NCBI RefSeq assembly: GCF_000746085.1
Contig: NZ_JQKO01000001.1
Span: forward strand, 1 to 64,000
Direction: 5' to 3'
DNA length: 64,000 bases
Origin: Methylocapsa aurea
Lineage (GTDB): Bacteria > Pseudomonadota > Alphaproteobacteria > Rhizobiales > Beijerinckiaceae
Part shown: piece by piece, positions 105-20,150 of the stretch
How positions within the stretch are numbered: position 1 is the first letter of the stretch
How the letters are laid out: the number at the start of each line of letters is the position of its first letter
Notes under the pieces: model-generated
Told to the model about the DNA's origin: nothing
What the model saw: only the letters and a program-made list of their open reading frames with translations
Database searches by the model: none
Program-made: the position numbers and the translations under genes

Positions 105-223
105 AGAAACAGGATAACGCCAGAATTGACGGGAAAACAAGGGGAATGATAATAGCCTTATAATAAACGGCTTTTTAGATTGTGGAAAAAGCAAGAAATC
201 GCCGTAAAAATGAGGCCGTCAAA

Positions 224-268
224 CTTTTAATCAGAGGGTCATGGGTTCGAATCCCATCGCGCTCACCA
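224..268 (+). other. 3' fragment of a tRNA-Lys(UUU) gene, probable attR site
   Basis: The segment reads as the 3' part of a tRNA. It has an anticodon loop CTTTTAA (anticodon TTT), the 3' strand of the anticodon stem, and a T-arm with a perfect 5-bp stem (ATGGG/CCCAT) around TTCGAAT. The acceptor 3' strand CGCGCTC, a discriminator A and an encoded CCA follow. The bases upstream contain no D-arm and no 5' acceptor strand, so the gene is incomplete. Such fragments are left where an island integrates into a tRNA 3' end. Because the fragment is on the plus strand, the intact tRNA and the element body should lie to the left, outside the window. Confidence 0.7.
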
Positions 269-484: not shown

Positions 485-1528
485 TCACGCCAAGAAGGCG
501 GTCCACGCCATGAATGGCGCGCCCGATAGCAGTGCGCGAACCGCGGTCTCGGTTTGATAGTTGCCGTTGATCGAGACGCGCGGCAAGGCCGTGAGCCGAT
601 CCGCGTGTCTTGGCCAGATGTGGCTTGGACGAGTGGTGACAGCGGTGAGATATTCGGCGCCGCGGGCCAGAGCAAATTCACGCGGACCGACGGAGCGGCT
701 GTCGCCGGACGGATAGGCCAGATGCCGGACAGGCCGGCCGAGCCGCTCCTCGATTATGGACCTACTATCTTTGATTTCGTTCGCCACAGCGAACGTGTTC
801 TGGCGGCGTAGAATTGGGTGACTCTGAGTATGGGACCCGATCGTCACATTTGGGTCTCGAGCCAGCACAGCGATCTCATCCCAGCTCGCGCATTGCTCCG
901 CTCCCAATTGACTAAGATCCAAATTAGCTTGCGCGGCAAGTTCGGAAGGCACGGCCCGCATTTGACATTCTGGTCCCGCTTTGAGGCGTTGGCAGAGACT
1001 ATGATACGCCGCATATTTCTCATCGGCTCCATGCGTCTTAAAGATGTGCTTCTCGCCATCGAGGATGACCTCAAAGGACTCCAGTGAGGCAATCGCCTCC
1101 TCAAGCTCGAGCCACCAAGGGGGACTGCGCCGGCTGGCAAAATCGGACACAATGAAAAGGGCCCATGGCGCCCCATGCCGTTTCAAGATTGGCCATGCAT
1201 ATGTGAGATTATCTCGATAACCATCGTCGAAGGTGAGCGCCGCGAAAGGCCGAGGCGTGCGCCTGCCTTCAAGTCGCGCCGGAACTTCGTCCAAGGCCAC
1301 GACGTCAAATCCATCTTCATCGAGCAATGTGAGGACTCGATCCAGAAAATCTGGAGTGATTTCGAGGGATCGGTTCGGCGCGAAGCTCTGTTCGCGCCAG
1401 GGCCGGACACGATGAAACATCAGGATGACGCCAGAGCCACGCGCGGCCCAGCGAAGCCAACGATCCGCTCGGGTCGCCGCGATGGCGCTAAATCCGATTG
1501 TGAACAGCGCGTGTTTCCAGTCGATCAT
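485..1528 (-). CDS. Polysaccharide deacetylase (NodB-homology, CE4)
   Basis: This 347-residue protein has a NodB-type carbohydrate esterase domain. TFDDGY near residue 100 carries the catalytic and metal-binding aspartates, SHTQSHP near residue 232 supplies the metal-binding histidines, and LAYPSG follows near residue 271. The family removes N- or O-acetyl groups from polysaccharides using a divalent metal. The N-terminus is only weakly hydrophobic, so export is uncertain. It is the last gene of the minus-strand exopolysaccharide cluster, about 310 bases downstream of the flippase-GH16 gene, with a mosaic repeat between them that may split transcription. A role in deacetylating the polymer made here is inferred from context. 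The acetylated substrate is unknown. Confidence 0.85.
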   Translation of the reverse strand: MIDWKHALFTIGFSAIAATRADRWLRWAARGSGVILMFHRVRPWREQSFAPNRSLEITPDFLDRVLTLLDEDGFDVVALDEVPARLEGRRTPRPFAALTFDDGYRDNLTYAWPILKRHGAPWALFIVSDFASRRSPPWWLELEEAIASLESFEVILDGEKHIFKTHGADEKYAAYHSLCQRLKAGPECQMRAVPSELAAQANLDLSQLGAEQCASWDEIAVLARDPNVTIGSHTQSHPILRRQNTFAVANEIKDSRSIIEERLGRPVRHLAYPSGDSRSVGPREFALARGAEYLTAVTTRPSHIWPRHADRLTALPRVSINGNYQTETAVRALLSGAPFMAWTAFLA

Positions 1529-1639
1529 TATCGTTTTGCCGAACTTCGGAAGAGCGCCAGGCTGCGCAATTCCAGATTGACCCTATGACGATGCATCGCG
1601 GACGGATTGTCCAAGCCTCGTCGCGCCAGACGTCCGAGC

Positions 1640-1768
1640 AGCTAGAGCCGGATGATTTTGGACGGAATCGCAAAGCGATCTCGTCCAAAGTCTGAATCCG
1701 CCTCTCATCAAAGAGTTAGAGCATGATGTCGTCCGAAAACCGGTTTCCACTTTTCGGCATCATGCTCT
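1640..1768. repeat. Composite intergenic mosaic element (Rhizobiales type)
   Basis: Two imperfect palindromic modules stand side by side. One (about 1640-1695) contains GGACGGAATCGC facing GCGATCTCGTCC. The other (1718-1768) begins AGAGCATGATG and ends CATCATGCTCT, with GAAAACCGGTTTCCACTTTTC inside its arms. The second module matches my memory of short intergenic repeats common in Rhizobiales genomes (RIME-like). It lies between the deacetylase and the flippase-GH16 gene and encodes no protein. Confidence 0.7.
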
Positions 1769-1839
1769 AATGGCCCCTCGACATCCTGGCGCGCGCTAAA
1801 AGGCCGCAAAAAAGGCAGAGCGCTTGCCAAAAAGATGTC

Positions 1840-4011
1840 TCACTGAGTTGCGACGCCGCGTTGCGGGGCCATAAAAACCCTGATCCGGCTGATGTGAAAA
1901 TCCGCCGGAAACGTTGTCAAAGCATCGGGTGGCTCCGCCCATCCCCCCACCGCAAGATTGACCAGGAGATACATCGGCTTGTGCATATCCGCCGGGGTCG
2001 GGGCCGAAGCGACGCGCCGCCCGTCGAAGTACCAAACGACCTCGTCCGCCGTCCATCGCATAGCATAGACGTGGAAATCATCGGAAAGGTCCGGCGTTGC
2101 GATCTTATTGGAGAATTCAACATCTTTGCCGCCGGCGCGCGAATGCGCCGTGGCGTGATATTCCGAAACATTCTGGCCCAGAACCTCCATAACATCGATT
2201 TCTGGCGGCCAGGTCTGATCGACGGGAAGCAGCCAGAAGGCGGGCCAGAGCCCTTTTCCCTTAGGAACGCGGGCGCATATGTCTACATAACCGTAAGTAA
2301 ACGAAAAGCGTTGATAGGTGGTCAGCAGTCCAGAGGCAAAGGGCAGATTTTCAGCGAATTTCAGGTCAGGAATAGGGATAGGATGAGCGCGAATGACCAG
2401 TCCGTCCTCATCGAGCAGAAAGGGCGTGAGGCTGGCGAGCGCGGGGTGATCGCGACGCTGCCGCGGATCGACATAATATTGAAGCTCTTTGTTGACCTTG
2501 ATCGTGCGCGCGCCCCAAGCGTAATGCGGCTCCCAAACGCCGCCCGGGGCCTCGTCCCAAAACCTTAGGCTTTTGAAGTCTTCCGTGAAGGCGAGCTCCC
2601 AATCCTCAGGCGGAACAGTCTCGGCGGCAGCCGGCGTAACGGCGATGGCGAGCCAGGCAAGTCCGGCAACCGCAGCAGCTTGCAAAAGGATGATGCGAAT
2701 AGCCGCCCAACCCTTAAGTATGCCAAGGCTGCGCATCAAAGCGACAAGGCCTATAATCAAGGCAAGGCCGGAAGCCGTGCACGCCCATGCCTGACCCGTG
2801 ATTCCTGCGGATCGATCAGCGGCAACCATCGCGCCAAGCAAAATCATGAATGCTGGTATGAAAATGCTGGCCGCGTGGGCCCAGGGCCTGAGCGATAAGG
2901 ATATCGCGATCGGAAGGCTCGAAGCGACAACCGCAAGCGGAACGCACGAAATGGCCAGCGCCCTCGTGACCGGAGCGGCCCTTTCGAAGCGTGGGAACAC
3001 AAGTTCAATCATTGGCCCCGCAGCGATGATCGCCAACGCCACCCCGCCAGAGAGGACGAGACACAGGAGGAGCGTCTCGCGTTCGACCAAACTCGAACCG
3101 GCGCCGGGCGAATGTTTCGCCATGTGGGCGAGGATCTTTGGGTAGCGGACCTGCGCGATCGTGGCGAACATCCCAATTCCGGTCAAGGCGAGGTTTGCGC
3201 CAAACGCGAACAGCCCAAAATCGTCCGCGGAGGATAATCCCGCCGAGATCCAGCGGTTCGCGGATAGATAGACTTCCCATACGCCGTTGAATGCAAAGAG
3301 GGGCAGGGCTAAGCGCAGAATAGGGACCAGCGGCGTGGGGCTTGTGGCAGTTGGGGAAACAGAACGCGACAGGAGAGCCGCGAGGGCACCATACCACAGC
3401 GCGAGGGCCATAAAGCATCCCGTCACGCCGCCAAAGACGAGACCGGCCAGACGCGGCGCGGTCAAGCCGGCGTTCAGAAGCAGGGCGGCGGCTGTGAATT
3501 CCCAAACCTTGGACGTGGCGCGAAACACTGTGACCGGTCCGTTTGCGATCATGAAGGCGCCTCCGGCGGCAATAGCCATAGCCGTGCCGATCACCGGAAG
3601 CGTCCCCGTGACCCAGGCGATCCACATCGCTAGCGGAACAACCAATCCGAGCACTATGGAACCGATAATCAAGCGGGAGCGCAGAATATTGGCGACCCAA
3701 TCCGCATCGGCGCTGTCGCCGAGGGCAAGTTTTCGATCGGCCAGCTGCGATAGGCCAAGATCGGTCTTGGTGGCGTATTGGAACAGGCTAGTCAGAAGCG
3801 TGAAGGTCCCGAAGGCCGCGGGACCGAGAAACCACGGTGCAATGACCGAGGTTCCGACGCTAAGTCCGGTGACAATAAGGACGCCGGCCGCATAGCCGCT
3901 ACGATGGCCGAGCCAGCGTAAGGCGGGCAGATGCCGCAGCCCGCCAATAGAGCGGGTTCCGATAAGAAGACGCAGCGCGCCGGTCTGCGAAATCGGGTTG
4001 TGCGTCAACAT
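1840..4011 (-). CDS. Fusion of a Wzx-type flippase and a GH16 glucanase domain
   Basis: One uninterrupted frame of 723 residues holds two modules. Residues about 30-460 are a polytopic membrane protein of the MOP/Wzx flippase type, with many hydrophobic helices. Residues 464-723 are a GH16 beta-glucanase or transglycosidase domain with the catalytic motif EIDVME at 604-609 (nucleophile Glu604, assisting Asp606, acid/base Glu609). The junction is a hydrophobic stretch ending TPAAAET that looks like a signal peptide end, so the enzyme should sit in the periplasm. An internal ATG (MRSLGILKG) just before it could also start a separate secreted GH16 protein. The start overlaps the glycosyltransferase stop by seven bases, indicating translational coupling. 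The flippase would move lipid-linked repeat units; the GH16 part would cut or trim beta-glycan product. The fusion is unusual. Confidence 0.8.
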   Translation of the reverse strand: MLTHNPISQTGALRLLIGTRSIGGLRHLPALRWLGHRSGYAAGVLIVTGLSVGTSVIAPWFLGPAAFGTFTLLTSLFQYATKTDLGLSQLADRKLALGDSADADWVANILRSRLIIGSIVLGLVVPLAMWIAWVTGTLPVIGTAMAIAAGGAFMIANGPVTVFRATSKVWEFTAAALLLNAGLTAPRLAGLVFGGVTGCFMALALWYGALAALLSRSVSPTATSPTPLVPILRLALPLFAFNGVWEVYLSANRWISAGLSSADDFGLFAFGANLALTGIGMFATIAQVRYPKILAHMAKHSPGAGSSLVERETLLLCLVLSGGVALAIIAAGPMIELVFPRFERAAPVTRALAISCVPLAVVASSLPIAISLSLRPWAHAASIFIPAFMILLGAMVAADRSAGITGQAWACTASGLALIIGLVALMRSLGILKGWAAIRIILLQAAAVAGLAWLAIAVTPAAAETVPPEDWELAFTEDFKSLRFWDEAPGGVWEPHYAWGARTIKVNKELQYYVDPRQRRDHPALASLTPFLLDEDGLVIRAHPIPIPDLKFAENLPFASGLLTTYQRFSFTYGYVDICARVPKGKGLWPAFWLLPVDQTWPPEIDVMEVLGQNVSEYHATAHSRAGGKDVEFSNKIATPDLSDDFHVYAMRWTADEVVWYFDGRRVASAPTPADMHKPMYLLVNLAVGGWAEPPDALTTFPADFHISRIRVFMAPQRGVATQ

Positions 4012-5351
4012 TGGCCTCGCCGCTTCGGCCGAGAGGCCACTTCATTGACAATATCGCCAATTGCGGCCGCAATCGGCGTCCAACCCAATTCTTCCCGAGC
4101 GTGCTTAAGAGCTCCGGCCGAACAGATTTCGTAGAGTGACGGGTCGTCGACTAAGGATTGGATCGCGGCGGCGAGGTCCTCGGATCCCATGCCCTTCGCG
4201 ATTATACCGGTTTGCCCGTCGCGCACTTGCTCAATGAGGCCGCCAACCGGCGTGGCTACGATTGGAAGCGCAGCGGTCAGAGCGGCGGCCGCGACTCCGG
4301 ATTGGCTCGCTTCGATATAGGGCAGCATCACAACGTCGGCACGCGCGAGAGCCTGTGCGATCTGCTCTTCATCGACCCAGGTGTTGATGATTGATGCGTT
4401 CGGCAAACCGGCAAGCTGCGATTCATAGGGTGAAATATCGCCAGAACCGACGATCTCGAGTTCAACCGCCACCCCACGCTCGCGCAGCAGGCGGTAGGCG
4501 TCGAGCAGGTGGCCCAACCCCTTGTAGGTGACGATCCGTCCGAAAAACAAAAGCCGCATCGGACGATGATGCGGGAACTTGCGCGGCGTGACGCTTCCCG
4601 ATCCGAAAGAAAACGCGCCATGGGGCACGGTCCAAATGCGGTCCGACGGAAACCCGTAGAACTTCTCCGCGGAGCGACCAACATGATCGGATAGCACGAT
4701 GAGGGCGTCGGCGCTGGCAATCTCCCAGCCAAGCACGCTCGCGCGAAAGGGGTAGTAGTCTCCCGGATGAAACTTGGCGTCGTGCAGAATGAGAATGAAC
4801 CGACTGGCGCGGCGGCGTAGGACGGGAATGGCCGCGACATCCCATATTGCTTGGAACGCGCAGATTGCAACATCCGTCCGACGTTCGTTGAGTATCCCTC
4901 GAAAATCACGCGCCAATTGCCATAGGCCAAGAAGCGCCAGAGCGGCGTTTAGCTTGCCTCTCCAAGATGTCTTGTCGCCATGAAAGGTGCGCACCTTGCG
5001 CAGCGCGACATCCTTCATCGAAGTGGTCAGGATCGCCAATTGCGAGCCTTCGGAGGCGGACACGGTCAGCTGGAAACCTTGCACGTTCCGGAGTTCGCGC
5101 GCGAGCTCATATGTGAACTTGGAGCCAGCCCCGGCGCGCCCCCAGTGCCACAGCAAAATCTCGCGTGGCCGTTTGGGACTGGCCGTCAATGCGGGTCTAG
5201 CCTTAATTTCCGTATTGGTCGAGGCTTGACCGTTGGCCGAAGTCCTTTTCAGAATTTGGGAATAGGATAGGCCCTTGGCCGCCCACGGCCTCGCTTGAGC
5301 GTGGAGCCACCCTGTCGGTACGAAAGAGGGCATCGATGGAATGAATTTCAT
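4005..5351 (-). CDS. Glycosyltransferase family 4 (GT-B fold), exopolysaccharide cluster
   Basis: This 448-residue protein has the C-terminal half typical of GT4 enzymes. LLFFGRIVTYKGL opens the nucleotide-binding domain near residue 270, and PYIEASQSGVAAAAL followed by PIVATPVGGL gives the donor-sugar EX7E-like region near residues 355-385. The start is an ATG preceded by AGGAG ten bases upstream. The first 60 residues are low in conserved features. It probably adds one sugar of the lipid-linked repeat on the cytoplasmic face. Donor and acceptor cannot be told. The stop overlaps the start of the flippase-GH16 gene. Confidence 0.85.
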   Translation of the reverse strand: MKFIPSMPSFVPTGWLHAQARPWAAKGLSYSQILKRTSANGQASTNTEIKARPALTASPKRPREILLWHWGRAGAGSKFTYELARELRNVQGFQLTVSASEGSQLAILTTSMKDVALRKVRTFHGDKTSWRGKLNAALALLGLWQLARDFRGILNERRTDVAICAFQAIWDVAAIPVLRRRASRFILILHDAKFHPGDYYPFRASVLGWEIASADALIVLSDHVGRSAEKFYGFPSDRIWTVPHGAFSFGSGSVTPRKFPHHRPMRLLFFGRIVTYKGLGHLLDAYRLLRERGVAVELEIVGSGDISPYESQLAGLPNASIINTWVDEEQIAQALARADVVMLPYIEASQSGVAAAALTAALPIVATPVGGLIEQVRDGQTGIIAKGMGSEDLAAAIQSLVDDPSLYEICSAGALKHAREELGWTPIAAAIGDIVNEVASRPKRRGQC

Positions 5352-5468
5352 GTAAGTTCAGCTCCTAGTCCACCGGCGCAACTGTTGATGGGATTCGCGC
5401 CATCGACCGCAGACTCCGCATTGTCCGACCCCGAAGCGCTCCCCTAGTCGATGCTTGGAAGACCCACC

Positions 5469-6932
5469 TCATCTGATCGGCTTCATAGAATCCGTGAACG
5501 CCTTCGCCGGTCTGACAGGTGGTTGCGCAGCGAAATCGATCGCTTGTTCAAAATGACAACCTTGAGGAGGCAAACGCTTCGCGGTCTCCCGCACCAGAAT
5601 CCAATAAAAAAAGAACGTTTCCATAACTGGCATTCCGAAGATGCCGGGCTCGCCAAATCCGGAAACAAGCACGAGCAAGATGATCCGATCGCGCGTTGGA
5701 TCTGGGTCGCTCACGAAACGGCTGATAAGCAAGGAAACGTAGGCGAAGCCTGGCAAAGAGCCAAGGAAGCCGACCGAAATCAGTGATTGCAGAAACATAT
5801 TGTGCGCATGCTTTGCCTGGTCCGCGAACATCGGATCTACGCTATTCGTGAATAGCTGTTCGGTGCCAAAATAGCCCCAGCCGAAAAATGGCCTTTGCAG
5901 AATATGTGTCCAGGCGATATCCCACAAGTCGGTGCGGCCCGTGAGCGTTAGGATTTCGCTTTCACGCCCTGTCCGGCTCAGCTTGCCGAATAATCCAACA
6001 ATGTCAGGTAGCGCGCCGCATGCGGCCAACACTAGGGCGAATGCGAGCGCGCCCAATATGACAATGGCGACGCCGCCCCCGAAGCGGCTGGTTCGGCAGG
6101 CAACTAGTCCCCAGGCAATCAACAATGCGACAATTGCCGTCCTGCTTCCTGTTGCTAGGATCGTTGCGACGCTCAATGCCAAAATGACATAGCAAATAGG
6201 GCGACTGATGAACCCCTCTCGCCGCGCCGTCATCACCATCAATATTAATATCGCGGCGAATTGGCCGAAGACGTTCGGATGACCGGCAAAGCCTTGTAAG
6301 CGAGTGCCGGCTTCGGATTCATCAAGCGATCCTGTTAGCCACGTAATGTTCGGAGCCGCGACCGCGCCAATAATGCCGGCGCAGATAAAGGCGACGAGCG
6401 TCCAGACAAAGAGGCGGATGACGGTTTCCTCGCGGAGGTCTACCACGACAATGCAGGCCAAAGCGCCATAAGCAAAGAGGCCAAACGCCGCGCCGCCGGA
6501 AAAGGCCGGAACCTCGGACCACAGGGCGGAAAGGCCCGCTATTGCCGCATAGGCGAATAGCAAAACAATCTCCGGTTTGAAGAAAATGCGGCTGATGCTG
6601 CGCCAGCGCAGAAACGCGAGCCCAATTATCGCAGTCCAGGCGGCGATCTTTAACGCGACCTGGGAATCGGGCACGAAGGGCTCGCGCTCGCTGAACTTAG
6701 CATCGATCAGAAGCGTAACGAAGACGAGGATGGCGCCGATGGCGAAAGGGTGGCCCCGCGCGGCATTCAGATAAATAAACGCCAGGACAACTGCGCCAGC
6801 GGCCACAAGCGGGATCGCATAGACCGCCGCGCCAAGATCGACTGGCGCCGCGAGTGCGCCGATCCAAGCCAGCGCGAACGCCGGCGGAGCCCAGCCCATC
6901 GAGGAACGAAAGTTGGGCGCAGCAATCGCCAC
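5469..6932 (-). CDS. Wzy-like polysaccharide polymerase / O-antigen ligase superfamily
   Basis: This 487-residue integral membrane protein has about ten hydrophobic helices and a large periplasmic loop. The loop contains LTGRTDLWDIAWTHIL followed by RPFFGWGYFG, the hallmark of the Wzy_C/O-antigen ligase superfamily. The start is GTG, supported by AAGGAG nine bases upstream. It lies 13 bases after the Wzz-like gene in the same operon. In a Wzx/Wzy pathway it would join repeat units on undecaprenyl pyrophosphate in the periplasm. Ligase activity cannot be excluded from sequence, but the Wzz-like partner favours polymerase. Confidence 0.8.
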   Translation of the reverse strand: MAIAAPNFRSSMGWAPPAFALAWIGALAAPVDLGAAVYAIPLVAAGAVVLAFIYLNAARGHPFAIGAILVFVTLLIDAKFSEREPFVPDSQVALKIAAWTAIIGLAFLRWRSISRIFFKPEIVLLFAYAAIAGLSALWSEVPAFSGGAAFGLFAYGALACIVVVDLREETVIRLFVWTLVAFICAGIIGAVAAPNITWLTGSLDESEAGTRLQGFAGHPNVFGQFAAILILMVMTARREGFISRPICYVILALSVATILATGSRTAIVALLIAWGLVACRTSRFGGGVAIVILGALAFALVLAACGALPDIVGLFGKLSRTGRESEILTLTGRTDLWDIAWTHILQRPFFGWGYFGTEQLFTNSVDPMFADQAKHAHNMFLQSLISVGFLGSLPGFAYVSLLISRFVSDPDPTRDRIILLVLVSGFGEPGIFGMPVMETFFFYWILVRETAKRLPPQGCHFEQAIDFAAQPPVRPAKAFTDSMKPIR

Positions 6933-6945
6933 TCGACTGAACTCC

Positions 6946-8307
6946 TTAGCGCCCGGAATGCGCGGAGAGGCGGTGCGCCCAGTTGGAAAGAGGCCGCCAT
7001 ACCATCGCCGCCCCAGCGAGACAGCCTGCGATCAGGCTTCCCAAAATCCCGAGAAGAAGATTGGGGAACGCCGGACGCGTTGGCTCCTCGGGGGGAGTGA
7101 GGATGTCGACATGCGGTATGACTGAACTCGCCCGCGCGGTTTGACCGGCAAGGCGCACCAAAGCAGTATCGAGCGCTTTCCTTCCGGACTCCGCGTCGCG
7201 TCGCAATTCGGTGAGGTGGAGTTCGGAATGTTGCCTCCGAATCATCTCCTCGCGAATTGTCTTTATCGCGCGTTGCAGGGCGAGCTCGCGCTCCATCGAA
7301 GTGCTGGCTTCCGTCTTCATCGCTCGAACGAGGCGGTCGCTTTCAGCTGCAATCAGCTGTTCGATCGCCCTTTGGGGAATATCCACTGGCGAAACTGCGG
7401 ATTTCGCGCCGGCCATCTTTTCTTTCAGTTTTTGAATGAAGGGCGAGGCGAGGACCTCTGGCGCGCTATCAAGTTTACCGGCTTTTTGTAGCTCGGAGAG
7501 CGCATCCGCGCGGGACTGCGCCTCAGTCGTCCGCGACCGCGCCAGAGCCGCCTCATTGCTCAATGTAGACAGCTCGCGCTCAAGGGAGATGGTCGCCCCC
7601 GTGTCGATCAGGCCGCTTTGGACAAGAAAATCCTTTAACGCAGCCTGCGAGGCGTCGGATTTGGCCCGCAATAGGTCAACCCGTTCGCTAAGCCATGCGG
7701 TGTGGTGGTCAATCGTCCGGCGCTTACGCGCCAATTGATCAGCGAGGTATGCCTTAAGCAGTGCGTCTGTCAGCGCCGCCGCCTTGGCGGGACTGGACGA
7801 GGTGAAGCCAAATTTCACCGTGTAGGAGCGACGGCCTTTTGAAACGGACAGACGGTTCAGGAGATTTTGACGGAGGTCGGACTCTGATGTGGTTCGTAGC
7901 CCGAACCAATTTCTCCAGCCTCCATTGAACTCGGGATCAGCCGCGAGAGAGTGCTGGGCAAGAACCGCAGCGGCCAGCGTCGGCGAAGAGATTTGGTCGA
8001 TCTCCGACTGGATCGCGCTTTCGTCAAGCGGCTGGCGCATATATTGCGCCGAATCTGATGACGACTCTGGATCCGTGGGATGGAGAATAATCGTGGTCGT
8101 CGCCTCATAGCGACGCGGCAAAAACGGCCACGCCACCGCAAAAGCGATCATAACGACGGAAAATCCCATAAAAAAACGCGATATATAGGAACGCCAGAGA
8201 TGTCGGTCCAATTTCGATCGCGATCCGCCGAAGGCGCCCCGAACCTGATCCCAGGGTTCAGCGGCGTCGTCGACAGACAACGGACTGCGGTTGACTTTCG
8301 CGTCCAT
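6946..8307 (-). CDS. Wzz/GumC-type chain-length determinant (no kinase domain)
   Basis: The protein has 453 residues from an ATG at 8307 (MDAKVNRSPL). A longer open frame exists upstream, but it would run into the GT2 gene and lacks the family's features. Helix 1 (about 42-62) leads into a periplasmic domain with PxxYEA-like RRYEATTTI. Long alpha-helical, coiled-coil-prone stretches follow, and helix 2 lies near 410-435. It ends soon after helix 2, without the tyrosine-kinase domain of ExoP- or Wzc-like proteins. The role is control of polymer length together with the Wzy protein. It is 17 bases downstream of the GT2 gene. Confidence 0.82.
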   Translation of the reverse strand: MDAKVNRSPLSVDDAAEPWDQVRGAFGGSRSKLDRHLWRSYISRFFMGFSVVMIAFAVAWPFLPRRYEATTTIILHPTDPESSSDSAQYMRQPLDESAIQSEIDQISSPTLAAAVLAQHSLAADPEFNGGWRNWFGLRTTSESDLRQNLLNRLSVSKGRRSYTVKFGFTSSSPAKAAALTDALLKAYLADQLARKRRTIDHHTAWLSERVDLLRAKSDASQAALKDFLVQSGLIDTGATISLERELSTLSNEAALARSRTTEAQSRADALSELQKAGKLDSAPEVLASPFIQKLKEKMAGAKSAVSPVDIPQRAIEQLIAAESDRLVRAMKTEASTSMERELALQRAIKTIREEMIRRQHSELHLTELRRDAESGRKALDTALVRLAGQTARASSVIPHVDILTPPEEPTRPAFPNLLLGILGSLIAGCLAGAAMVWRPLSNWAHRLSAHSGR

Positions 8308-8324
8308 GATTTCCAATCCAGGTG

Positions 8325-9260
8325 CTAGTTGCCGCTCATCGCGCTGGGCGGAGGGGTCTGAAGTTCCGGCCTGCTCGATGTCGGAGTTCGCGCAATAGGA
8401 TAGAGGCGGTCGCGGAGAGACCCGCCAATCAAACGGAATACGATATACATAAGGGTGACCAAAAAGAACTCGATCACATTCAGAAAGCCGGCGCGAAAGC
8501 AAGAAAAGCGAAATCGGATTTCGTTCATGCAATAGCGCAGTCCGCCCCGCCGCCGGCGCTGCGCGATGCTGGTGCGCATACGCAGAAGGACTCTGGGGAT
8601 CACATGAAAGCGCGCGCCGCTTAAGACAAGCCGAACATAGAGATCGTAATCCTCGAGCATGCCGAAATCAGGGCGATACCCCCCAACCTTGCGAAGCGCT
8701 TCCGTTCGAATCAACACCGTCGCATGGGTAAGCACGTTGCGCCAGCGCAAAGCTCGGGCGACCGCGTCATGATGGACGGACGAAGACTTCACCATCTCCG
8801 GCCCGCCCTCATCGTAAAATTCAACGCACCAGCCAGTGACTATATCGGTGTCGGGATGGGTCCTAAAATAGTCAAGCTGCAACTCTAGTCGACGCGGATC
8901 GCATATGTCGTCGCTGTCTGCGCGCATTATATATTTTCCGGAACAACGTTCGATCCCGGCATTCAGCGCCCTTGCGAGTCCGCGATTCTTCGGCAATCTC
9001 ACAAGAGTCACATCGTCGATGCGGGAATCGATCGCATATCGAGAGATAACATCCTCTTGGGCGACGTCGACGGGGCCGTCCAACACAAGCACCAATTGGT
9101 CGGGTGGGACGGTTTGAGCGAATATGCTCTCGAGGGATTCCTCAAGATTTGCCGCGGTCTCGCCAGCATATGTTGATATTAGCGCGCTGACGGCTGCTTC
9201 TTCGTCTGCCTGCCGTGGCTGGGGGGAATGATCCCTGGTAGGCGTAGGAGGACTGCTCAT
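8325..9260 (-). CDS. Glycosyltransferase family 2, exopolysaccharide cluster
   Basis: This 311-residue GT-A enzyme has SALISTYAGE at the start of the nucleotide fold, LPKNRGLARALNAGI, and the DXD-type motif RADSDDICDP that binds the metal-sugar nucleotide. A C-terminal amphipathic or membrane-associated stretch (FLNVIEFFLVTLMYIVF) suggests membrane attachment. The ATG at 9260 was chosen because GAGGAGGGG lies just upstream and the start overlaps the preceding stop as ATGA. An ATG 42 bases further upstream is less likely. It should add a sugar to the lipid-linked intermediate. Its substrate is unknown. Confidence 0.85.
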   Translation of the reverse strand: MSSPPTPTRDHSPQPRQADEEAAVSALISTYAGETAANLEESLESIFAQTVPPDQLVLVLDGPVDVAQEDVISRYAIDSRIDDVTLVRLPKNRGLARALNAGIERCSGKYIMRADSDDICDPRRLELQLDYFRTHPDTDIVTGWCVEFYDEGGPEMVKSSSVHHDAVARALRWRNVLTHATVLIRTEALRKVGGYRPDFGMLEDYDLYVRLVLSGARFHVIPRVLLRMRTSIAQRRRRGGLRYCMNEIRFRFSCFRAGFLNVIEFFLVTLMYIVFRLIGGSLRDRLYPIARTPTSSRPELQTPPPSAMSGN

Positions 9261-9940
9261 CGTGCGCCCCTCCTCGAAAGGACGACGCGTGGCGTCTGAC
9301 ACAAGATCAAAATGTCAAGAACTATATTCCAATCGCGCACATAACGCTCGTCAAGCGCGACGCGAGTTGCATAGCTGACATCATTGCGGCCGCTCACCTG
9401 CCACAGCCCTGTCATTCCGGGCCGCACGCTCATGTAGAGCGCGGCGCTTGAACGGTAATAATCTTCGAGTTCTGCCCGGGTTACGGGGCGCGGCCCGACG
9501 AGGCTCATCTCGCCTCTGATGACGTTTAGCAATTGCGGGATTTCATCGAGGCTCGACTGCCGCAGAAGTCTTCCAATGAAGGTCACGCGCGGATCAAAGT
9601 TTAATTTGCGACTTTGCAGCCATTCGTCTCGCGCGGACGGATGATGGTCGAGATATTCTTCCAGGCAGCCATCGGAGTCAGGTATCATCGTCCGGAACTT
9701 TATGCATTTGAAAGAAATTCCGTTCGCGCCGACGCGATTGCCAAAGTAAAGGACAGGACCGCCATCCAAAGCAATCGCCGCCGCTGTCATGACCATCAAG
9801 GGTAGGGCGAACAACAGAAGGGCCGAAGCCGCTATAATGTCGAAGCAGCGCTTGGCTAGATAAGCCGTTTGCTTGACCAAATGGAAAGAGGTCCGGGGCG
9901 GCGTTTGAGGTATTTGAGGAGTAATCATTTTCAAGCTCAT
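9257..9940 (-). CDS. Undecaprenyl-phosphate sugar-1-phosphate transferase, ExoY-like
   Basis: This 227-residue protein belongs to the bacterial sugar transferase family and starts repeat-unit assembly on undecaprenyl phosphate. It has one N-terminal hydrophobic hairpin (about 30-55), then GPVLYFGNRVG, KCIKFRTM, SSLDEIPQLLNV, MSLVGPRPVT and RPGMTGLWQVSGRN, the conserved catalytic core. The short form with one membrane segment is like ExoY, not the longer WcaJ form. It is the first gene of the minus-strand cluster and faces the AT-rich intergenic region, so the operon promoter should lie just upstream. Galactose or glucose phosphate is the usual donor; which one is used here is not visible. Confidence 0.9.
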   Translation of the reverse strand: MSLKMITPQIPQTPPRTSFHLVKQTAYLAKRCFDIIAASALLLFALPLMVMTAAAIALDGGPVLYFGNRVGANGISFKCIKFRTMIPDSDGCLEEYLDHHPSARDEWLQSRKLNFDPRVTFIGRLLRQSSLDEIPQLLNVIRGEMSLVGPRPVTRAELEDYYRSSAALYMSVRPGMTGLWQVSGRNDVSYATRVALDERYVRDWNIVLDILILCQTPRVVLSRRGAR

Positions 9941-10029
9941 CCTTTGCGGGCGCAGAAAAGACTGCGTAAGCTGAGAGGCGTCGCGAAGACGTTCTCAACG
10001 ATTGATAGATCCGCTCTTGGCCGCAGCTT

Positions 10030-10330
10030 GAATCGTCTCCCCCAAAGCCGATATCAAATAATATTGTATTAATCGGCAGCGCATTAATAATAGTTATTAT
10101 TATTTATAAAAGCGCATTGCATTGGTACAGCGAACCAAGCCAAATTTAAATAATCTATATATGACACTTTTATGTCAATGTGGTGCTCTATATAGCGATA
10201 TGCATAGATGTAGCTGTTCTAAACGTCAACAAAAATCGGAGTGTTTGCTAGATATTATTATGTTAATACTAGTTAGTAGTGATGATATATTATAATTCGA
10301 AATAGATAGTTGATTTAATATTGTTGCGTA
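10030..10330. promoter_or_regulatory. AT-rich upstream control region of the exopolysaccharide operon
   Basis: About 300 bases are strongly A+T-rich in an otherwise GC-rich genome, with runs such as TTATTATTATTTATAAAAG and many TA steps. The region lies directly upstream of the first exopolysaccharide gene and has no open frame. In Rhizobiales, regulators such as MucR act on AT-rich DNA near exopolysaccharide genes, so binding of that kind is a reasonable inference. I do not identify a specific promoter. Confidence 0.4.
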
Positions 10331-11571
10331 TGCGGATCCGGTGCGTTGTCCGATGATGTTGGCGTCTTGTCGGGGGGGGGCGAAAAAGTTCTCGGAATTG
10401 CTCGGCGTGAAGGCGTTGATTGCAATGCGAATAGCTTCTCACCAAACAGGGATAGGTCGCGTGGCTACCGCGCGCAGGAGCGCCTCGAGTGTGGAGAACG
10501 CGTCTCATCCTGAGCCTCTTGAAGGATGGATTAGCTTGGAGTCCGGCGCGTAGGTGGGGCGGATAACCTCGGAGTCGCGCGGGCCGCTTCCTTGGCTTGC
10601 CGCGCGCCAGGCGCCTTGTGAGTTGGCGGGTTGTCAGCCGCGCGACGGCAATGCCGAGCGGGAGCCGGCAACGAGAATCTGATCGACATATAAGAGGGAA
10701 GGCGTCGCGCTCCTTCGGGCCGTCAAGCACCCAAGGCGCCACGAGGTCTCCATTGGTGGCCTAGCCGTGACGATCGCATTTTTGAGCGCTTCCCGATCAG
10801 ATAGGATCATCTGATTGAAAAAAATCGCGTTAGACCAAGGAGTTGGAGCATAATATGCTCTGGCTATAAGCGTGAGGAGCCAAGGCAAGACAGCGCATCT
10901 ACCTGTGGGCGTGGATGAGAGACAATGTCGAAGTCGGCGGCGGCGCTGATCAAGAGGAAAATCAACATTGCGTTGGCCGCCAATCCCGTTGGCCAATTAT
11001 TTGCCCGGATCGGCATCGCTTGTCGGAAGACATTGTGTCGAGCGGTCGAACGCATGGGGCCGGCGTCAAATACCGTCGAGAACCACACGGAAGGGGGCCA
11101 TCGGCTCGGCGGACCAAAGTAGACATGGCGCCACCTTTGGCATGCATTTCGAGTTGGCAAAGGCATCCATTTTTGCCGCTGCTTTCGGGGATCATGCGCG
11201 AGCGGACGGGGCCGCAGAGTCTATCCCTGGCGTCAGGATCAACCAGCGCCCGCACGATTCGCCAACGCGCGCCGCGTCACTTTTGAGAACGATATGCAGC
11301 GCTACTTGCGTGAAGGAGCGGTGACAGTTTCTTGTCAATGTAAATTGCCGCGCATGAACTAATAAAGGCCATTAGCATATTAATCATAGTTAAATATACG
11401 TATATATAAGTATATACTAAATGTGTTACTTGCAATATGATATTATCAGGTGTATTAATTAACTATATAGAGCCAAGAGAAGAGCCTTTTTTAAGTTCGT
11501 ATTTGAAATCAACATTGTATGGCGTCTCAAGGCTTTATTATGTCACTACCGAGTTTCCGGGGAGTTTGGCC
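10331..11571. other. 1.2 kb without a recognisable gene, partly AT-rich
   Basis: No convincing gene is seen. Open frames on both strands are short, overlap each other and have no familiar motifs or good ribosome binding sites. A short palindrome CATCCT...AGGATG lies at 10506-10528, a mosaic repeat at 10784-10862, and a second AT-rich stretch (about 11340-11460) with ACGTATATATAAGTATATAC precedes the copper oxidase gene. The middle part looks like decayed coding DNA whose origin I cannot name. Confidence 0.4.
10784..10862. repeat. Mosaic intergenic repeat, copy in the exopolysaccharide region
   Basis: The copy begins GAGCGCTTCCCGATCAGAT, continues with ATCATCTGATTG, and ends GTTGGAGCATAATATGCTC. 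The same order of modules occurs at 15362-15477 and, inverted, at 16227-16334. This copy is degraded in its middle and lacks the long terminal palindrome. Confidence 0.55.
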
Positions 11572-13299
11572 ATGTGGCGCATTAATTATCGTTTTGGGGC
11601 TGCGTTTCAGCGATTGTCGGCGCTAAGCCGTCTAACAAAAGTAAGTCTTGGCGTACTTCTAGTAATTCCATCTGCATTTGTCGCCTCAGAAGTGTTTTCA
11701 GGGAGCCCTGATCTCAGACTATTTAAGCTCGAAAAGGATAAGAAAGCTCCAATCGACTATGGGTACGGTCCGGGTAAAGGAAAAAAGCCCCCTATTGGGG
11801 ACGTTAAGCTCACTAAGAACTTCAAGCTCAGTCAGGGCCTTCGCCTTTTGCAAACCCCGACAGGCGGGGGCGGCGGCGGCTTTTTTGGTCCGGCTTTTCC
11901 GTGGCCGATCATCCCGCTTCACATGGGGCTCTTGCCGGATGGACGCGTCTTGACCTACGGCACCGATGAGCAGGGTCAGCAGGGAGCGCAACTCGTCTAT
12001 GACGTTTGGGATCCTGCGATTGGGACTGGAGCGGACTCGCATCTGATCCTTGCCAATACGACACAGACGGACATCTTCTGCAGCGCGGCGAGTCTGATCG
12101 GGGAAGGTCTTTCCGGCAGCACAAGTCTGTCCGGCAAGATGCTGATCCTCGGTGGCGATGTCACGATCAATGGAACGCGAAACTATTCGGATAATAATAT
12201 CGATATCTTTGACCCGAGCAATAATGCGCTGATCGACGCGGGGAGGATGCAATTCAAGCGTTGGTATCCTTCAATCACCACTTTGCGCAACGGCGACAAG
12301 CTGCTCCTCGGCGGGCAACTCACCCCGGGGGTGGGCGCGGTGACGCCGGAAGTCTTCAATCCGACGTCTGGCTGGAGAACCTTGTCGTCGATTTCAATAA
12401 GCGACGTAGACGAATGGTTTTATCCGAGGGGCATCGTTGGTCCGGATGGCGCGGTCAATCTTCTCCAGCATAATGGTAAGATTTTCAGGCTCACCACCAG
12501 CGGCTCGGGAAGCATGAATGATACGGGCGCGCTGATGGCCCCGGGGAGAACATATTATCCTTCAGTGATGATGCCCGGCTTCACCCCTAATAAGGTGTTG
12601 ATGGTGCGCGCCAACCAGAGGGCTCAAATCGTTGATCTTTCCAGCTACCCGCCAGCGGTGAGCGATGTCGACAACATCCATCATGATCGCATCTGGGGGA
12701 ATTTGACGCTGCTTCCAGACGGAGGAATCCTCGCCACTGGGGGATCCTCAGTCTACAACGAGACGACCGGCAATGTCGCCTATCAGTCGGAGGTCATGAA
12801 TCCGCGCACTGGAACTTGGACAGTTGGCGCCTGGGCTTCAATACCGCGTCTTTATCATTCGGCGACGCTCGTCCTTCCGGACGGGTCGGTGCTGACCGCG
12901 GGCGGCGGCGCTCCAGGGCCGGTGAACAACCTCAATGCGGAGATTTATTATCCAGCGTATCTGTACAACTACGATGGCTCTGGAACAGCTGCGCCGCGAC
13001 CGACAATCGTTTCCGCCCCGACGACGCTCCAATTAGGACAGAGCTTCACGATGACTGTCGGAGCTAACGACCAGGTCGGCTATATCAACCTCGTTCGCCT
13101 CGGCTACAACACCCATGCCTATGATTCGGAGCAGCGGCTGATCCCCGTGCCGTATTCTCAGAGCGGAGCGACGGTTACGGGGTATGTGGACTCCTCGCCA
13201 GAGAAACTTCTGCCCGGCTATTACATGATCTTCTTATTCAACACCCAAGGTCACCCAGCGCTGGCGAAAATAGTCTCCATACCCCAATCCATTCAGTAA
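11572..13299 (+). CDS. Secreted galactose-oxidase-like copper-radical oxidase (AA5 type)
   Basis: This 575-residue protein starts at an ATG with GGGGAG nine bases upstream. An N-terminal hydrophobic segment (about 24-40) acts as signal or anchor, followed by a glycine-rich linker (97-103), kelch beta-propeller repeats and a C-terminal immunoglobulin-like domain (about 475-575, DUF1929 type). By motif comparison with fungal galactose oxidase, every key residue is present: Cys170 in DIFCSAAS and Tyr232 in RWYPSITT (thioether-linked cofactor pair), axial Tyr428 and ligand His429 in RLYHSA, and His515 in [10 protein letters not shown]. The family oxidises primary alcohols, often of sugars, to aldehydes with release of hydrogen peroxide. 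The gene is divergent from the exopolysaccharide operon, so the polymer is a likely substrate. That link is inferred. Confidence 0.85.
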
Positions 13300-13369
13300 C
13301 CGGCCAACGGGGCAGGCGGCGGCGAAATCGAGTCGCCGCCGGCAAAGACGCGCCGAAGCTACGGACAGA

Positions 13370-13620
13370 GCGACGGATCGACGCCAGCACGCTGGGCGCT
13401 CCGTCGCGATCTTGGATCCCAGCGTCATGCACGATGAGGCCGACAAGGTTCCCTTGCGTATCAGTGACGATGTGGCGCTTGCGTCCCTTGATCTTCTTCC
13501 CGGCGTCGTAGCCACAAGGCCGCCGCTCTCGGTCGTCTTCACCGGCTGGCTGTCGATGACCCCCCGGCGCGCCAATCCGACGGAATCACAATCCTTTGAA
13601 GTCACCCACCTCTTCATTCA
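13370..13620 (-). pseudogene. Relic of an IS5-family transposase
   Basis: The minus strand encodes [14 protein letters not shown] in one frame. After a shift it continues as [20 protein letters not shown] and then [20 protein letters not shown] in another. These are the central catalytic-domain motifs of IS5-type DDE transposases, split by at least one frameshift. Neither the N-terminal third nor the C-terminal glutamate region is present, and no terminal inverted repeats are visible. It is a dead fragment at the right border of the exopolysaccharide region, immediately downstream of the copper oxidase gene. Confidence 0.8.
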
Positions 13621-13853
13621 GTCAGACGCTGAGACCTTAAGGGCGGTCTACGGCCGCGCACATCGACCTGTTTCGCCCGGAGGGTGTTGAGCATGGATGA
13701 CCTTGGAGGACCGTCCAGGGTGGGAGCCGAAGCGGCCCTGGAAATGAATTTTATGCTTGAGTGTTGCTCAACTTCCACAGCGCTTAGCCGATTTGGGCGT
13801 TAAGATGCCGGTCGGGATCAGATCATCTGAGCCTTTTTGACCAAGCGTTCGCC

Positions 13854-15125
13854 ATGTCCGCCGCATCTCGACACACTGACACGCCCACGGCGGATGCAGC
13901 CAAGGTGCTGATCCGGCTGGGATTAGCGCTTTTGATGATTGGCCTGCCTTGCGCCGGCGTCCTCTCGCGCGGCGCGATTTACGTTCTCTTGCCAACCGGC
14001 GCGATCGTGATCCTCATGGGCGCATTGCTTGACGCGCCGAATCATGGGGCGCGGCAATTGCGCGTCGCGCTGCTTTCTTCGGCGGGCGCGGCCGCGCTGT
14101 TCTTGACGTTCTGGGCAGGCTTGTCGCTGCTCTGGACGCCGTTTCCGGCGATCGCCGGCCAACGCTTTCTACAGACAGCTGGAACCACCTTTCTCGTCGC
14201 CATCGTCGCCGCCTATCTTCCGGAAAAGACGAAGGCTTTCGACCTTTATCTATTGCCCTTCGGCCTCGTCCTGACAGCCTTGGCGACGCTCACGCTCGCG
14301 CTTTTGGGGCTTGAGTGGTTCTGGCACGGCTCCGAATTCGACGAGACGCTGTTCAATCGCTCGGTGATCACGTTGATCGTCCTGGTCTGGCCCGCGCTCG
14401 GGGCGCTGTCCCTGCGGGAACATTGGATATCGGCGGCCGGACTCGCCCTCCTCGCCGCCGCTGTGGCCCTGGCGGGATCGGCTCAGATCGTTCTGGCGGC
14501 GATGGGGGCGGGAGCTTTCGCCTTCGCCATCGCCATGTCGGAGCCGGGCCGGACGTCTCGATTCCTCGCCTACAGCTTGGCGCCCCTGATCCTGTTCGCT
14601 CCCGTGATTGTGCTGCTTTACGTCGTCGTTTTCCGATTGACGGGTTTGGAAGCGGGACCGGGATCGATATCGATGGAAATTTGGAGCGATCTGATCACCG
14701 CGCAATGGCCACGTTTGATAACCGGGCATGGCTTCGACATGGCGAACCGCGCTCTGAACCTTGGCTATTTGCCGGCGCAGGCGCCAAGGAGCCTGCTATT
14801 CGTCCTTTGGTATGACCTTGGCCTTGTCGGCGCCTTCGCCTTTGCGGTGTTGACCGCGCGCGTTTTCTTGCTCGCAGGGCGGATTCCCGCCCTTGTCGCG
14901 CCCGCCGTCCTGGCCGGACTTGTGGCGATCTTGACTCTTGCGTTTCTGGGCGTTGCGACCGCCCAGATCTGGTGGGTGACCCTCGTAGACTGCGCCGTTG
15001 TCGCCTTCGCGATTCTCATCAAAGGGGTCTACCGCACGCGGCGGCCGAGCGCGCCGCCGAGCGAGCCGGTCCCATTTGAGGAGGAGCTGGACCTGGATCG
15101 GGCGCGCCCGTCGTGGGAGATCTGA
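13854..15125 (+). CDS. O-antigen-ligase-like polytopic membrane protein
   Basis: This 423-residue protein is made almost entirely of hydrophobic helices (ten or more), with a periplasmic loop holding LITAQWPRLITGHGFD. That loop resembles the ligase/polymerase loop motif of the Wzy_C superfamily. The C-terminal tail is charged (EELDLDRARPSWEI) and probably cytoplasmic. No good ribosome binding site precedes the ATG. It lies beyond the IS relic, separate from the exopolysaccharide operon, so it could be a second polymerase, a ligase for the surface glycan, or unrelated. Substrate is unknown. Confidence 0.6.
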   Translation: MSAASRHTDTPTADAAKVLIRLGLALLMIGLPCAGVLSRGAIYVLLPTGAIVILMGALLDAPNHGARQLRVALLSSAGAAALFLTFWAGLSLLWTPFPAIAGQRFLQTAGTTFLVAIVAAYLPEKTKAFDLYLLPFGLVLTALATLTLALLGLEWFWHGSEFDETLFNRSVITLIVLVWPALGALSLREHWISAAGLALLAAAVALAGSAQIVLAAMGAGAFAFAIAMSEPGRTSRFLAYSLAPLILFAPVIVLLYVVVFRLTGLEAGPGSISMEIWSDLITAQWPRLITGHGFDMANRALNLGYLPAQAPRSLLFVLWYDLGLVGAFAFAVLTARVFLLAGRIPALVAPAVLAGLVAILTLAFLGVATAQIWWVTLVDCAVVAFAILIKGVYRTRRPSAPPSEPVPFEEELDLDRARPSWEI

Positions 15126-15550
15126 CGCCGTTCGGGTTTATGCGATGAGGATGGCTTGGATGATGGCTGGGCCATCGGGGCCAATGATGCCTTCCCTTAG
15201 CGGCATCGCGAAAATTTGAAAATGCGGTTGCTGGTTCTTCGCCGCCAGTCTTTCGCCGCGTGTCTTCGGATCTTGACTTCCGGGCTTAGGACAGGAGGCA
15301 AGCGCGCGTCAGAGCGCCGCAATTGAGCGGTTTCTCGCAATCAATGTCGCGATTCCTTTGCTAGGGCGCTTCCCGATCAGATCGAATCATCCGATCGAAC
15401 AGGAATCGCTCAAATTCAACGAGTTGGAGCATGTTCTAATCGAAAAAGTCGATCAACTTTTTCGGAACATGCTCTAGGCGCTCGGGACAATAACGAATGA
15501 GACCCAAGAAGGTCTTGCGGGAGCAGGCCAAGCGGTCTTAACATTGTCAG
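15126..15550. other. Intergenic stretch with a mosaic repeat only
   Basis: About 425 bases separate the ligase-like gene from the GNAT gene. Apart from the mosaic element at 15362-15477 I see no coding frame, RNA gene or clear promoter. Confidence 0.5.
15362..15477. repeat. Mosaic intergenic repeat with terminal palindrome
   Basis: The element reads GGGCGCTTCCCGATCAGATC, ATCCGATCG, CAAATTCAACGAGTTGGAGC and then a long palindrome from GGAGCATGTTCTAATCGAAA to TTTTTCGGAACATGCTC. The same modules recur in inverted order at 16227-16334, on the other side of the GNAT gene, so the two copies bracket that gene as an imperfect inverted repeat. Confidence 0.75.
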
Positions 15551-16057: not shown

Positions 16058-16226
16058 GGTATTTTGCGGCGCAGCTAGCGCATGAACCGGGAAGCGGTCC
16101 CAGCTTTCCGACGGACCATGCATCATCAAAAGCTAAAGAGCGCGATCCGGTCGAGAGGATTGCGCTTTGGGGCCCCTACAATTCCGCGAAGAGGCCGTGG
16201 CCAAACGATCTGGACGACGAATAGAT

Positions 16227-16334
16227 CTAGAGCATGTTCTGATCGACTTTTTCGATCAGAACATGCTCCAACTCGTTGAATTTGAGCGATTTCTTTTCGA
16301 TCAGATGATTCCATCTGATCAGGAAGCGCTCTAG
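16227..16334. repeat. Mosaic intergenic repeat, inverted copy
   Basis: A near-perfect palindrome runs from AGAGCATGTTCTGATCGA to TCGATCAGAACATGCTC. It is followed by CAACTCGTTGAATTTGAGCG, GATCAGATGATTCCATCTGATC and AGGAAGCGCTCT. This is the reverse-complement order of the element at 15362-15477. It ends about 80 bases before the pyrophosphatase start. Confidence 0.75.
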
Positions 16335-16413
16335 GCGTCCTGCGGAGCTGACGGTCCTGAAAACCCGCCCATAAGGGCGGCGCAAACCCATCAATGCTTT
16401 TTTGGAGATAAGT

Positions 16414-20142: not shown

Positions 20143-20150
20143 AGAATTTT

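Follow-up and report, generated by a model that had tools for sequence, protein, structure and literature searches.

The 64,000-nucleotide stretch of DNA analysed here (the window) carries an AA5 copper-radical oxidase with an intact set of catalytic residues, encoded divergently from a Wzx/Wzy exopolysaccharide (EPS) cluster. We tentatively propose, at a little under even chances, that this protein acts outside the cell as an oxidase that tailors a polymer made by a Wzy pathway. The initial annotation had tied the oxidase to the EPS polymer, and that interpretation is partly supported: co-occurrence within the same type of cluster was not found in relatives, whereas the closest AA5 relatives do lie beside other Wzy-pathway genes. 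The features concerned are as follows.

223 to 268, plus strand: tRNA 3' half, from anticodon loop to CCA with no 5' half (sequence reading)
485 to 1528, minus strand: polysaccharide deacetylase, CE4-like (PF01522, E=6e-18; TFDDG and HTQSH motifs)
1840 to 4011, minus strand: flippase (Wzx-like)::GH16 fusion protein (PF00722, E=2e-22, for the GH16 part)
4005 to 5351, minus strand: GT4 glycosyltransferase (PF13692, PF00534)
5469 to 6932, minus strand: Wzy polymerase, Wzy_C (PF04932, E=9e-19)
6946 to 8307, minus strand: EpsF/Wzz-type chain-length determinant lacking a kinase domain (TIGR03017, E=4e-35; start taken as ATG 8307)
8325 to 9302, minus strand: GT2 glycosyltransferase (PF00535, E=4e-24)
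9257 to 9940, minus strand: WbaP/ExoY-type undecaprenyl-phosphate sugar phosphotransferase, heading the cluster (PF02397, E=8e-57)
9941 to 11571, no strand: A+T-rich gap between the divergent genes (GC count)
11572 to 13299, plus strand: AA5 copper-radical oxidase, 575 aa (longest ORF 11437 to 13299, 620 aa; PF09118, PDB matches, alignments, model)
13854 to 15125, plus strand: O-antigen ligase-like membrane protein, judged by eye (Pfam and NCBIfam: none)

The AA5 protein comprises an N-terminal signal or anchor segment, a PIDYGYGP motif, a Kelch propeller and a C-terminal galactose oxidase (GO)-like E-set domain; its single hydrophobic segment lies near residues 21-42, and it scores 61 bits against PF09118 (cut-off 25). 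The five key residues originally listed, Cys170, Tyr232, Tyr428, His429 and His515, are correctly numbered if translation starts at ATG 11572, which is residue 46 of the 620-aa ORF and the start with which the homologue in genome G058 aligns; in the longer ORF they become 215, 277, 473, 474 and 560. In sequence alignments they correspond to the thioether-cofactor Cys-Tyr pair, the axial Tyr and the two His ligands, which is the full residue set expected of AA5. In an alignment of 111 AA5 ORFs (109 different, the window's included), these columns hold Cys in 109 with two gaps, Tyr in all 111 at both positions, and His in 111 and in 110 with one gap, and this near-invariance argues that the residue set of the window is not due to chance. 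The modelled structure superimposes on solved galactose oxidases with Z of about 44-47 (437 residues aligned at Z 47), consistent with the propeller plus GO-like E-set fold that characterizes AA5.

The same fold and aligned copper and radical residues are found, at 29-30% identity and Z 45-47, in two galactose oxidases, the Pseudoarthrobacter siccitolerans enzyme (PDB 9g43/9g8h) and fungal 1gof. Unlike 9g8h, however, the window AA5 has Leu and Gly opposite a Trp and an Arg that we take to be the equivalents of W290/R330; the Trp place is anchored by an adjoining GG, and the Arg place is uncertain, lying in a loosely aligned loop. The W290/R330 pair is described as the criterion for a galactose 6-oxidase (PMC11267884). 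Because no equivalent pair aligned in the comparison with 9g8h, galactose-6-oxidase activity is not predicted for the window AA5, and "galactose oxidase" should not be taken literally as its name.

The closest precedent is from Streptomyces, where the initial annotation had GlxA working with a cellulose-synthase-like protein; this agrees with the published account that cellulose synthesis by CslA depends on GlxA (PMC11022532). Like GlxA-CslA-CslZ, the window combines a putatively membrane-anchored AA5 oxidase with a polysaccharide synthesis system and an endo-glycanase, and the GlxA fold resembles the window AA5 model (Z about 43). The differences are that CslA is a GT2 cellulose synthase whereas the window pathway is Wzx/Wzy, that the window AA5 reaches 137 bits against a cut-off of 800 for the GlxA equivalog NF052501, and that its gene is divergent and uncoupled, with no SCO copper-chaperone gene detected by the SCO model in the first 22 kb. 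The GlxA analogy also raises the improbable alternative that the AA5 protein is mainly structural or complex-forming in polymer synthesis, as GlxA is in part for CslA activity, with oxidation secondary or lost. Residue 333 (620-aa numbering) is Ile in the window, where 102 of the 111 AA5 ORFs have Trp, Phe or Tyr, and this fits such a role; against it, the copper and radical residues are all retained and no CslA-type cellulose synthase was found among the ten proteins scanned at 485-18578.

What GlxA itself oxidizes bears on a stronger, still doubtful, competitor. Neither galactose nor various mono- and disaccharides are significantly oxidized by it, a point against the tailoring role, and glycolaldehyde is its best known substrate (PMC4736821). 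The window AA5 could likewise be an independent extracellular oxidase of small alcohols or aldehydes, for example glycolaldehyde-like ones, standing beside EPS genes only through shared entry into a variable region. The unaligned galactose determinants favour such an enzyme, as do the host, a probable Beijerinckiaceae methanotroph (PF02461 match), and the presence of AA5 in records from Methylobacterium, Methylococcaceae, Methylophilaceae and Methylibium.

Pfam and NCBIfam searches corroborated the minus-strand Wzx/Wzy cluster, at 485-9940, and the deacetylase gene that the initial annotation had placed in it. The core of the pathway is present, with the priming transferase (PF02397) and Wzy (PF04932) over cut-off and the EpsF-like chain-length regulator below it (TIGR03017, 122 bits against 423; weak PF02706, E=0.0034). 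The priming protein also matches TIGR03022 (E=2e-87) over its catalytic part only, below cut-off. The N-terminal half of the fusion protein has no Pfam match of its own; PF01943 is over cut-off in a homologous fusion (L201, 51%) and in a separate homologue of the flippase half (L217, 48%), indirectly supporting its assignment as a Wzx flippase. The GH16 domain that had been proposed is real, with the catalytic motif EIDVME, but it is the C-terminal part of this fusion and not a separate enzyme; hydropathy places a hydrophobic segment ending in AAA-E immediately before it, and its closest model is EglC, with a score below that model's cut-off. The flippase-GH16 fusion is conserved and is also worth testing as an unusual arrangement in which the repeat-unit flippase carries a glycanase. 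Since base 1 of the window is the start of the contig, the left end of the cluster is incompletely visible; no OPX exporter gene was seen at the truncated locus, and none was detected in nine of 18 homologous loci. Elsewhere the genome has two OPX genes (PF02563) at other loci and two more PF02397 priming-transferase genes.

GH16 enzymes accompany other Wzx/Wzy EPS pathways, including the ExoK/EglC type of S. meliloti. The promonan locus of Sphingomonas LM7 (PMC11340318), as described, likewise has a priming transferase, glycosyltransferases, Wzz, Wzy and GH16. Unlike that type, the window has its GH16 fused to the flippase and includes a deacetylase, and the words oxidase and deacetylase do not occur in the promonan paper. 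The galactose-oxidase-like FbfB of Stigmatella aurantiaca, required for fruiting bodies, is another bacterial case in which the gene adjoins a glycosyltransferase gene (PMC3543389); it is likened here by description alone, and that description, in the portion available, includes no Wzy cluster. Among the PMC matches listed, no title or abstract opening connects AA5 oxidases with Wzy pathways. A paper on Actinoplanes EPS clusters (PMC13390465) contains none of the words oxidase, copper, glyoxal, GlxA or kelch, and PMC9693552 names galactose oxidase solely in its references.

Placed divergently with 1.6 kb between them, the oxidase gene and the cluster do not share a transcript, which speaks against a joint role. 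The intervening gap had been called an AT-rich control region. Its A+T-richness held (GC 0.498 versus 0.627 for 20-64 kb of the window); promoter- and terminator-like matches in 9900-14000 showed no excess over shuffles. Rfam gave no match at gathering thresholds, and a laxer search of 1-500 likewise brought up nothing that exceeded them. To the right, the gene at 13854-15125 is present in 15 of 15 genomes of the genus, its own included, and is followed by a GNAT gene in all ten examined; it is a chromosomal backbone gene and the right-hand border of a variable region. At this site, none of the ten same-genus genomes examined has the EPS-AA5 region. To the left, the tRNA-like 3' half at the contig edge, presumably of tRNA-Lys(TTT), is a possible attachment-site remnant; ARAGORN detected no tRNA in the window. 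AA5 genes on plasmids were confined to 27 records, all distant (≤36% identity), and a search of phages gave none.

The EPS cluster is itself conserved across the family, with 18 other loci examined. An AA5 gene was near none of these 18 (18-20 kb per locus), and the genome of the window (G000) is the sole one among 397 in the family with both AA5 and the cluster at E≤1e-50. Taken with the lack of this region in the same-genus genomes, these counts make the pairing look strain-specific and acquired, and the check that the initial annotation had set, conserved co-occurrence, fails. The confinement of the pairing to this genome, the missing region in relatives and the tRNA-like remnant also favour an unconnected small-substrate oxidase.

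Such an oxidase leaves unexplained the positions of two AA5 relatives. The closest, from G058 (53% identity; sister in the tree, SH-aLRT 99), heads a codirectional run AA5-GT4-GT2-GH5/39-Wzy-Wzz/kinase-GNAT-flippase-like, whose Wzy-pathway genes differ from the window cluster. In Aquabacterium L123, within the 22-row clade of the window (support 100), AA5 precedes EpsF (above its equivalog cut-off) and EpsG (below), followed by two genes without family match, an opposite-strand GH5/39 gene and two acyltransferases; in Aquabacterium L079, it lies among glycosyltransferase and nucleotidyltransferase genes. Beyond these, some Meiothermus copies of AA5 are placed in glycan clusters: in genomes G828 (L105) and G857 (L106) the contig that carries AA5 also has a PF04932 match some 10 kb away, L105 having upstream genes for a GT4, an aminotransferase and an epimerase, and L106 a WecA-like gene and a beta-helix protein downstream. 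A PF13440 flippase gene is directly upstream of AA5 in Rhizobacter L097, with a WbaP-type gene farther away. With its nearest relatives beside polysaccharide genes, a sugar-modifying role for the window AA5 is plausible. Wzz matches near AA5 in the genus Methylobacterium (L162 and others) may be coincidence; two genes intervene in L162, named by eye as a chloride channel and a ketopantoate-reductase-like protein.

Statistical support for this association was uneven. EPS models were built from the EPS clusters of this analysis, including those of the window and G058, and the window and L039 match by construction. Core EPS genes were not significantly enriched near AA5 (11 of 67 loci of at least 18 kb, two of them the model-building window and L039, versus 4 of 53 random windows, p=0.17), while any EPS-model match was (17/67 versus 5/53, p=0.03), related genomes not being independent in either count. 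The controls were the 53 kept of 60 windows drawn, four having been dropped for carrying an AA5 gene and three for overlapping another window; two of the four control matches have an AA5 locus nearby (L258, in G840, at a distance of about 18 kb, and L270, with the same Wzz as L162). A post-hoc split, hand-counted after viewing, gave 4 of 17 loci in the clade that includes the window AA5 versus 2 of 51 controls (p=0.03) and is not relied on. On the tree, 13 rows labelled EPS-linked required four label changes versus 12.4 in shuffles (0 of 500 that low), a count inflated by near-copies and including two L116 rows where no EPS genes were later seen. Most AA5 relatives lie elsewhere, with no EPS-model match in 84 of 105 loci, some of them short. 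In an all-against-all ORF comparison of 85 loci, only AA5 itself and apparent other-frame ORFs overlapping it were shared by a majority of the loci.

The diversity of these loci also touches on whose polymer is modified. The AA5 clade is associated with Wzy-pathway loci of several kinds and not with one type, which would suit an oxidase whose target is another glycan made by the cell, such as the product of a second EPS locus; one of the two further PF02397 genes lies 4.7 kb from the genome's second AA5, with unrelated genes in between, and both OPX genes are at other loci. The glycan genes nearest the window AA5 are nevertheless those at 485-9940, and we consider a different target improbable.

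Our preferred model, tailoring of a Wzy-made polymer, would describe a laterally acquired, strain-specific surface-polysaccharide region. WbaP would prime undecaprenyl phosphate, GT2 and GT4 would extend the repeat, and the flippase with its tethered GH16 glycanase would flip it, after which Wzy would polymerise, Wzz set chain length and the deacetylase edit the polymer. The AA5 protein, once secreted and loaded with copper, would most likely oxidise primary hydroxyls (or aldehyde hydrates) of the Wzy-pathway polymer, presumably that of this cluster, to carbonyls with release of H2O2, as GlxA serves CslA. A broader and more doubtful generalization is that the AA5 branch of the window, G058 and Aquabacterium, and separately Meiothermus, was repeatedly recruited to tailor polysaccharides of Wzy pathways, a glycosidase or beta-helix protein often being encoded close by, and gives carbonyl-bearing, possibly self-crosslinking EPS, in a Wzy-based parallel to GlxA-CslA. 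Little is known of what bacterial AA5 oxidases act on in nature. If some of these enzymes serve Wzy-made polymers, a substrate class would be named and the window, G058 and Aquabacterium would provide defined loci for tests; if true, this would also point to an enzymatic way in which bacteria naturally introduce aldehydes into their polysaccharides.

The contig bearing the window comprises 660,574 bases, with the window as its first 64 kb, and belongs to a genome of 3.97 Mb in 34 contigs (G000). A PF02461 gene (AMO/pMMO subunit A) is present in G000, and the host is probably a methanotroph of a broadly drawn family that we take to be Beijerinckiaceae. The window pairs an exopolysaccharide (EPS) cluster with a copper-radical oxidase gene of family AA5:

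485-9940, minus strand: EPS genes, in order from 9940 to 485 WbaP-type transferase, GT2, EpsF-like Wzz, Wzy, GT4, flippase::GH16 and polysaccharide deacetylase
1840-4011, minus strand: flippase::GH16 fusion protein, 723 aa
11572-13299, plus strand: AA5 oxidase gene, with the motif P[VI]D[YWFL]GxGP at residues 60-67 (575-aa numbering)

The N-terminal half of the 723-aa fusion had no Pfam match of its own; a full-length homologue (locus L201) matched PF01943 and PF00722, both over cut-off. Flippase and GH16 are separate genes in two genomes (L216 and L217) of Methylobacterium, the genus of G329 and of M. gossipiicola. The GH16 motif EIDVME is intact in the window fusion, and a hydrophobic stretch ending AAA-E directly precedes the GH16 domain, from which position the domain could face the periplasm. 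Judged by match spans, G000 shares this fusion architecture with 17 other family genomes; in one of these the gene lies at a contig edge (G423), and in two it contains an internal stop (G043 and G121). Matches at E<=1e-50 were found in 47 of 397 family genomes, many through the GH16 half alone. A limited literature search found no mention of a flippase-GH16 fusion.

Homologous EPS loci were compared in 16 of these 17 other fusion genomes and the two with split genes. Wzy, Wzz, a transferase of GT4 or GT2_4 type and the flippase and GH16 parts, whether fused or split, were detected in all 18; GT2 and WbaP were each detected in 17, the deacetylase in 14 and OPX in nine. From GT2 to the deacetylase, GT4 included, gene order in the window is the same as at locus L203. 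Conserved co-occurrence of AA5 with this cluster, as expected from the initial annotation, was not borne out, AA5 being found in 0/18 homologous loci.

The window AA5 has the catalytic residue set and the fold of its family. Catalytic residues were invariant wherever aligned among 111 AA5 ORFs (from 100 of 105 AA5 loci). The AlphaFold2 model (mean pLDDT 81.7, pTM 0.81; residues 1-92 below 50) matched galactose oxidase 9g43 with Z 47.0, fungal galactose and alcohol oxidases with Z ~44-45, GlxA with Z ~43 and fungal glyoxal oxidase with Z 39.6. The window AA5 has Leu and Gly where 9g8h has the Trp and Arg that we assume to be the W290/R330 equivalents, the place of the Arg being uncertain. Residue 333 (620-aa numbering) is Ile in the window AA5 and Trp, Phe or Tyr in 102/111 ORFs. 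The W290/R330 Trp/Arg pair is described as the key indicator of galactose 6-oxidase activity (PMC11267884).

AA5 matches at E<=1e-50 occurred in 21/397 family genomes, own included; one member of this family, G329, has an AA5 identical to the Methylobacterium gossipiicola copy (L108). Only the AA5 of G058 (53%) and a second copy in G000 (50%) reached >=50% identity in the family search, and among 385 class genomes G000 alone matched at E<=1e-60. In the tree, the window AA5 is sister to that of G058 (support 99), within a five-row clade (98) that adds the second G000 copy and the identical pair L059/L151. An enclosing 22-row clade (100) also holds Aquabacterium copies and all 11 of the 111 ORFs with the N-terminal motif.

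The nearest AA5 relatives are placed in EPS loci. Codirectional genes downstream of AA5 in G058 encode, in order, GT4, a GT2_4-type transferase, GH5/39, Wzy, Wzz/kinase and GNAT proteins, and finally a flippase-like protein whose PF01943 match (E=1e-5) is under cut-off. In Aquabacterium CECT 9606 (L123), dTDP-rhamnose-type genes (by eye) precede AA5, which is followed by EpsF (over its equivalog cut-off), an EpsG-like gene (below its own), two genes lacking any family match, a GH5/39 protein (opposite strand) and two acyltransferases; in Aquabacterium E10 (L079), glycosyltransferase genes and a beta-helix protein surround AA5. Two Meiothermus loci have a Wzy_C match ~10 kb from AA5. At L105 the surroundings include genes for GT4, DegT and epimerase proteins, and at L106 genes for WecA-like and beta-helix proteins; a third locus (L116) showed no such glycan genes by eye. 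A flippase gene lies immediately upstream of AA5 in Rhizobacter (L097). The second G000 copy adjoins a flavin amine oxidase gene; a PF02397 gene lies 4.7 kb away, separated from it by unrelated genes. Most other relatives are without EPS genes (84/105 AA5 loci had no EPS match), and overall enrichment of EPS genes near AA5 was not significant. There is moderate support for a looser association of this AA5 branch with Wzy-pathway loci.

Other AA5 surroundings were also seen. In two genus genomes (L041 7125-11453 and L046 5923-11940), distantly related AA5 genes lie near a common gene pair, 82-87% identical, but on different sides of it; the pair encodes a flavin amine oxidase and a small protein that weakly matches 2Fe-2S ferredoxin. 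At L054 9848-15148, three tandem AA5 genes precede transporter genes that by eye resemble those for type I secretion.

SCO1/SenC-type copper-chaperone ORFs were present at 25/105 AA5 loci (24 if the gene common to L108 and L161 is counted once) versus 0/53 control windows, using a model built from four of the 25 positive loci. The positives include L094, L102, L109, L121, L162 and 20 others, and Pfam confirmed 10/10 ORFs tested, those of the four model-building loci among them. The co-occurrence is partly known, having been reported for Frankia and Burkholderia (PMC4736821). No such ORF was found near the window AA5 within the first 22 kb.

The region is absent from the genus relatives examined. 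The fusion protein had no match at E<=1e-50 in any of 14 other genus genomes. The gene at 13854 was found in 15/15 genus genomes, own included, and is followed by a GNAT gene in 10/10 others examined and then, within the fetched stretch, by ppa in 9/10; no AA5 or EPS protein matched within the 11-17 kb of leftward sequence examined (10/10). These left neighbourhoods differ, yet two of six compared in detail (L294 and L297) have upstream genes in common. GC content is 0.553 for AA5, 0.498 for the gap (9941-11571) and 0.544-0.601 for the EPS genes, all under that of window 20-64 kb (0.627). Near the contig edge, a tRNA-like 3' half (223-268, anticodon loop to CCA, without the 5' half) resembles an attachment-site remnant. 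Most simply, the region was acquired, its borders being provisional; oxidase and EPS genes may have arrived together or separately. Farther right (16836-20081), ppa and metW are separated by genes that by eye look like those of a porin and an AcoR-type regulator; metW directly follows ppa in 8/10 genus genomes examined (within the fetched stretch). An intergenic repeat with GCGCTTCCCGATCAGAT or close variants has copies at 10780-10860, 15361-15455, 16240-16334 and 20095-20143, including a 95-nt inverted pair of 93% complementarity.

In Streptomyces, GlxA is described as required for CslA cellulose synthesis (PMC11022532), and its maturation as assisted by Sco and DtpA. The best known substrate of GlxA is glycolaldehyde, and neither galactose nor a range of mono- and disaccharides gave significant activity (PMC4736821); the aldehyde-bearing, crosslinked polymer suggested in the initial annotation is therefore kept as a hypothesis. 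The window AA5 is predicted to be exported, copper-loaded and active, and its putative substrate would be a Wzy-made polymer.
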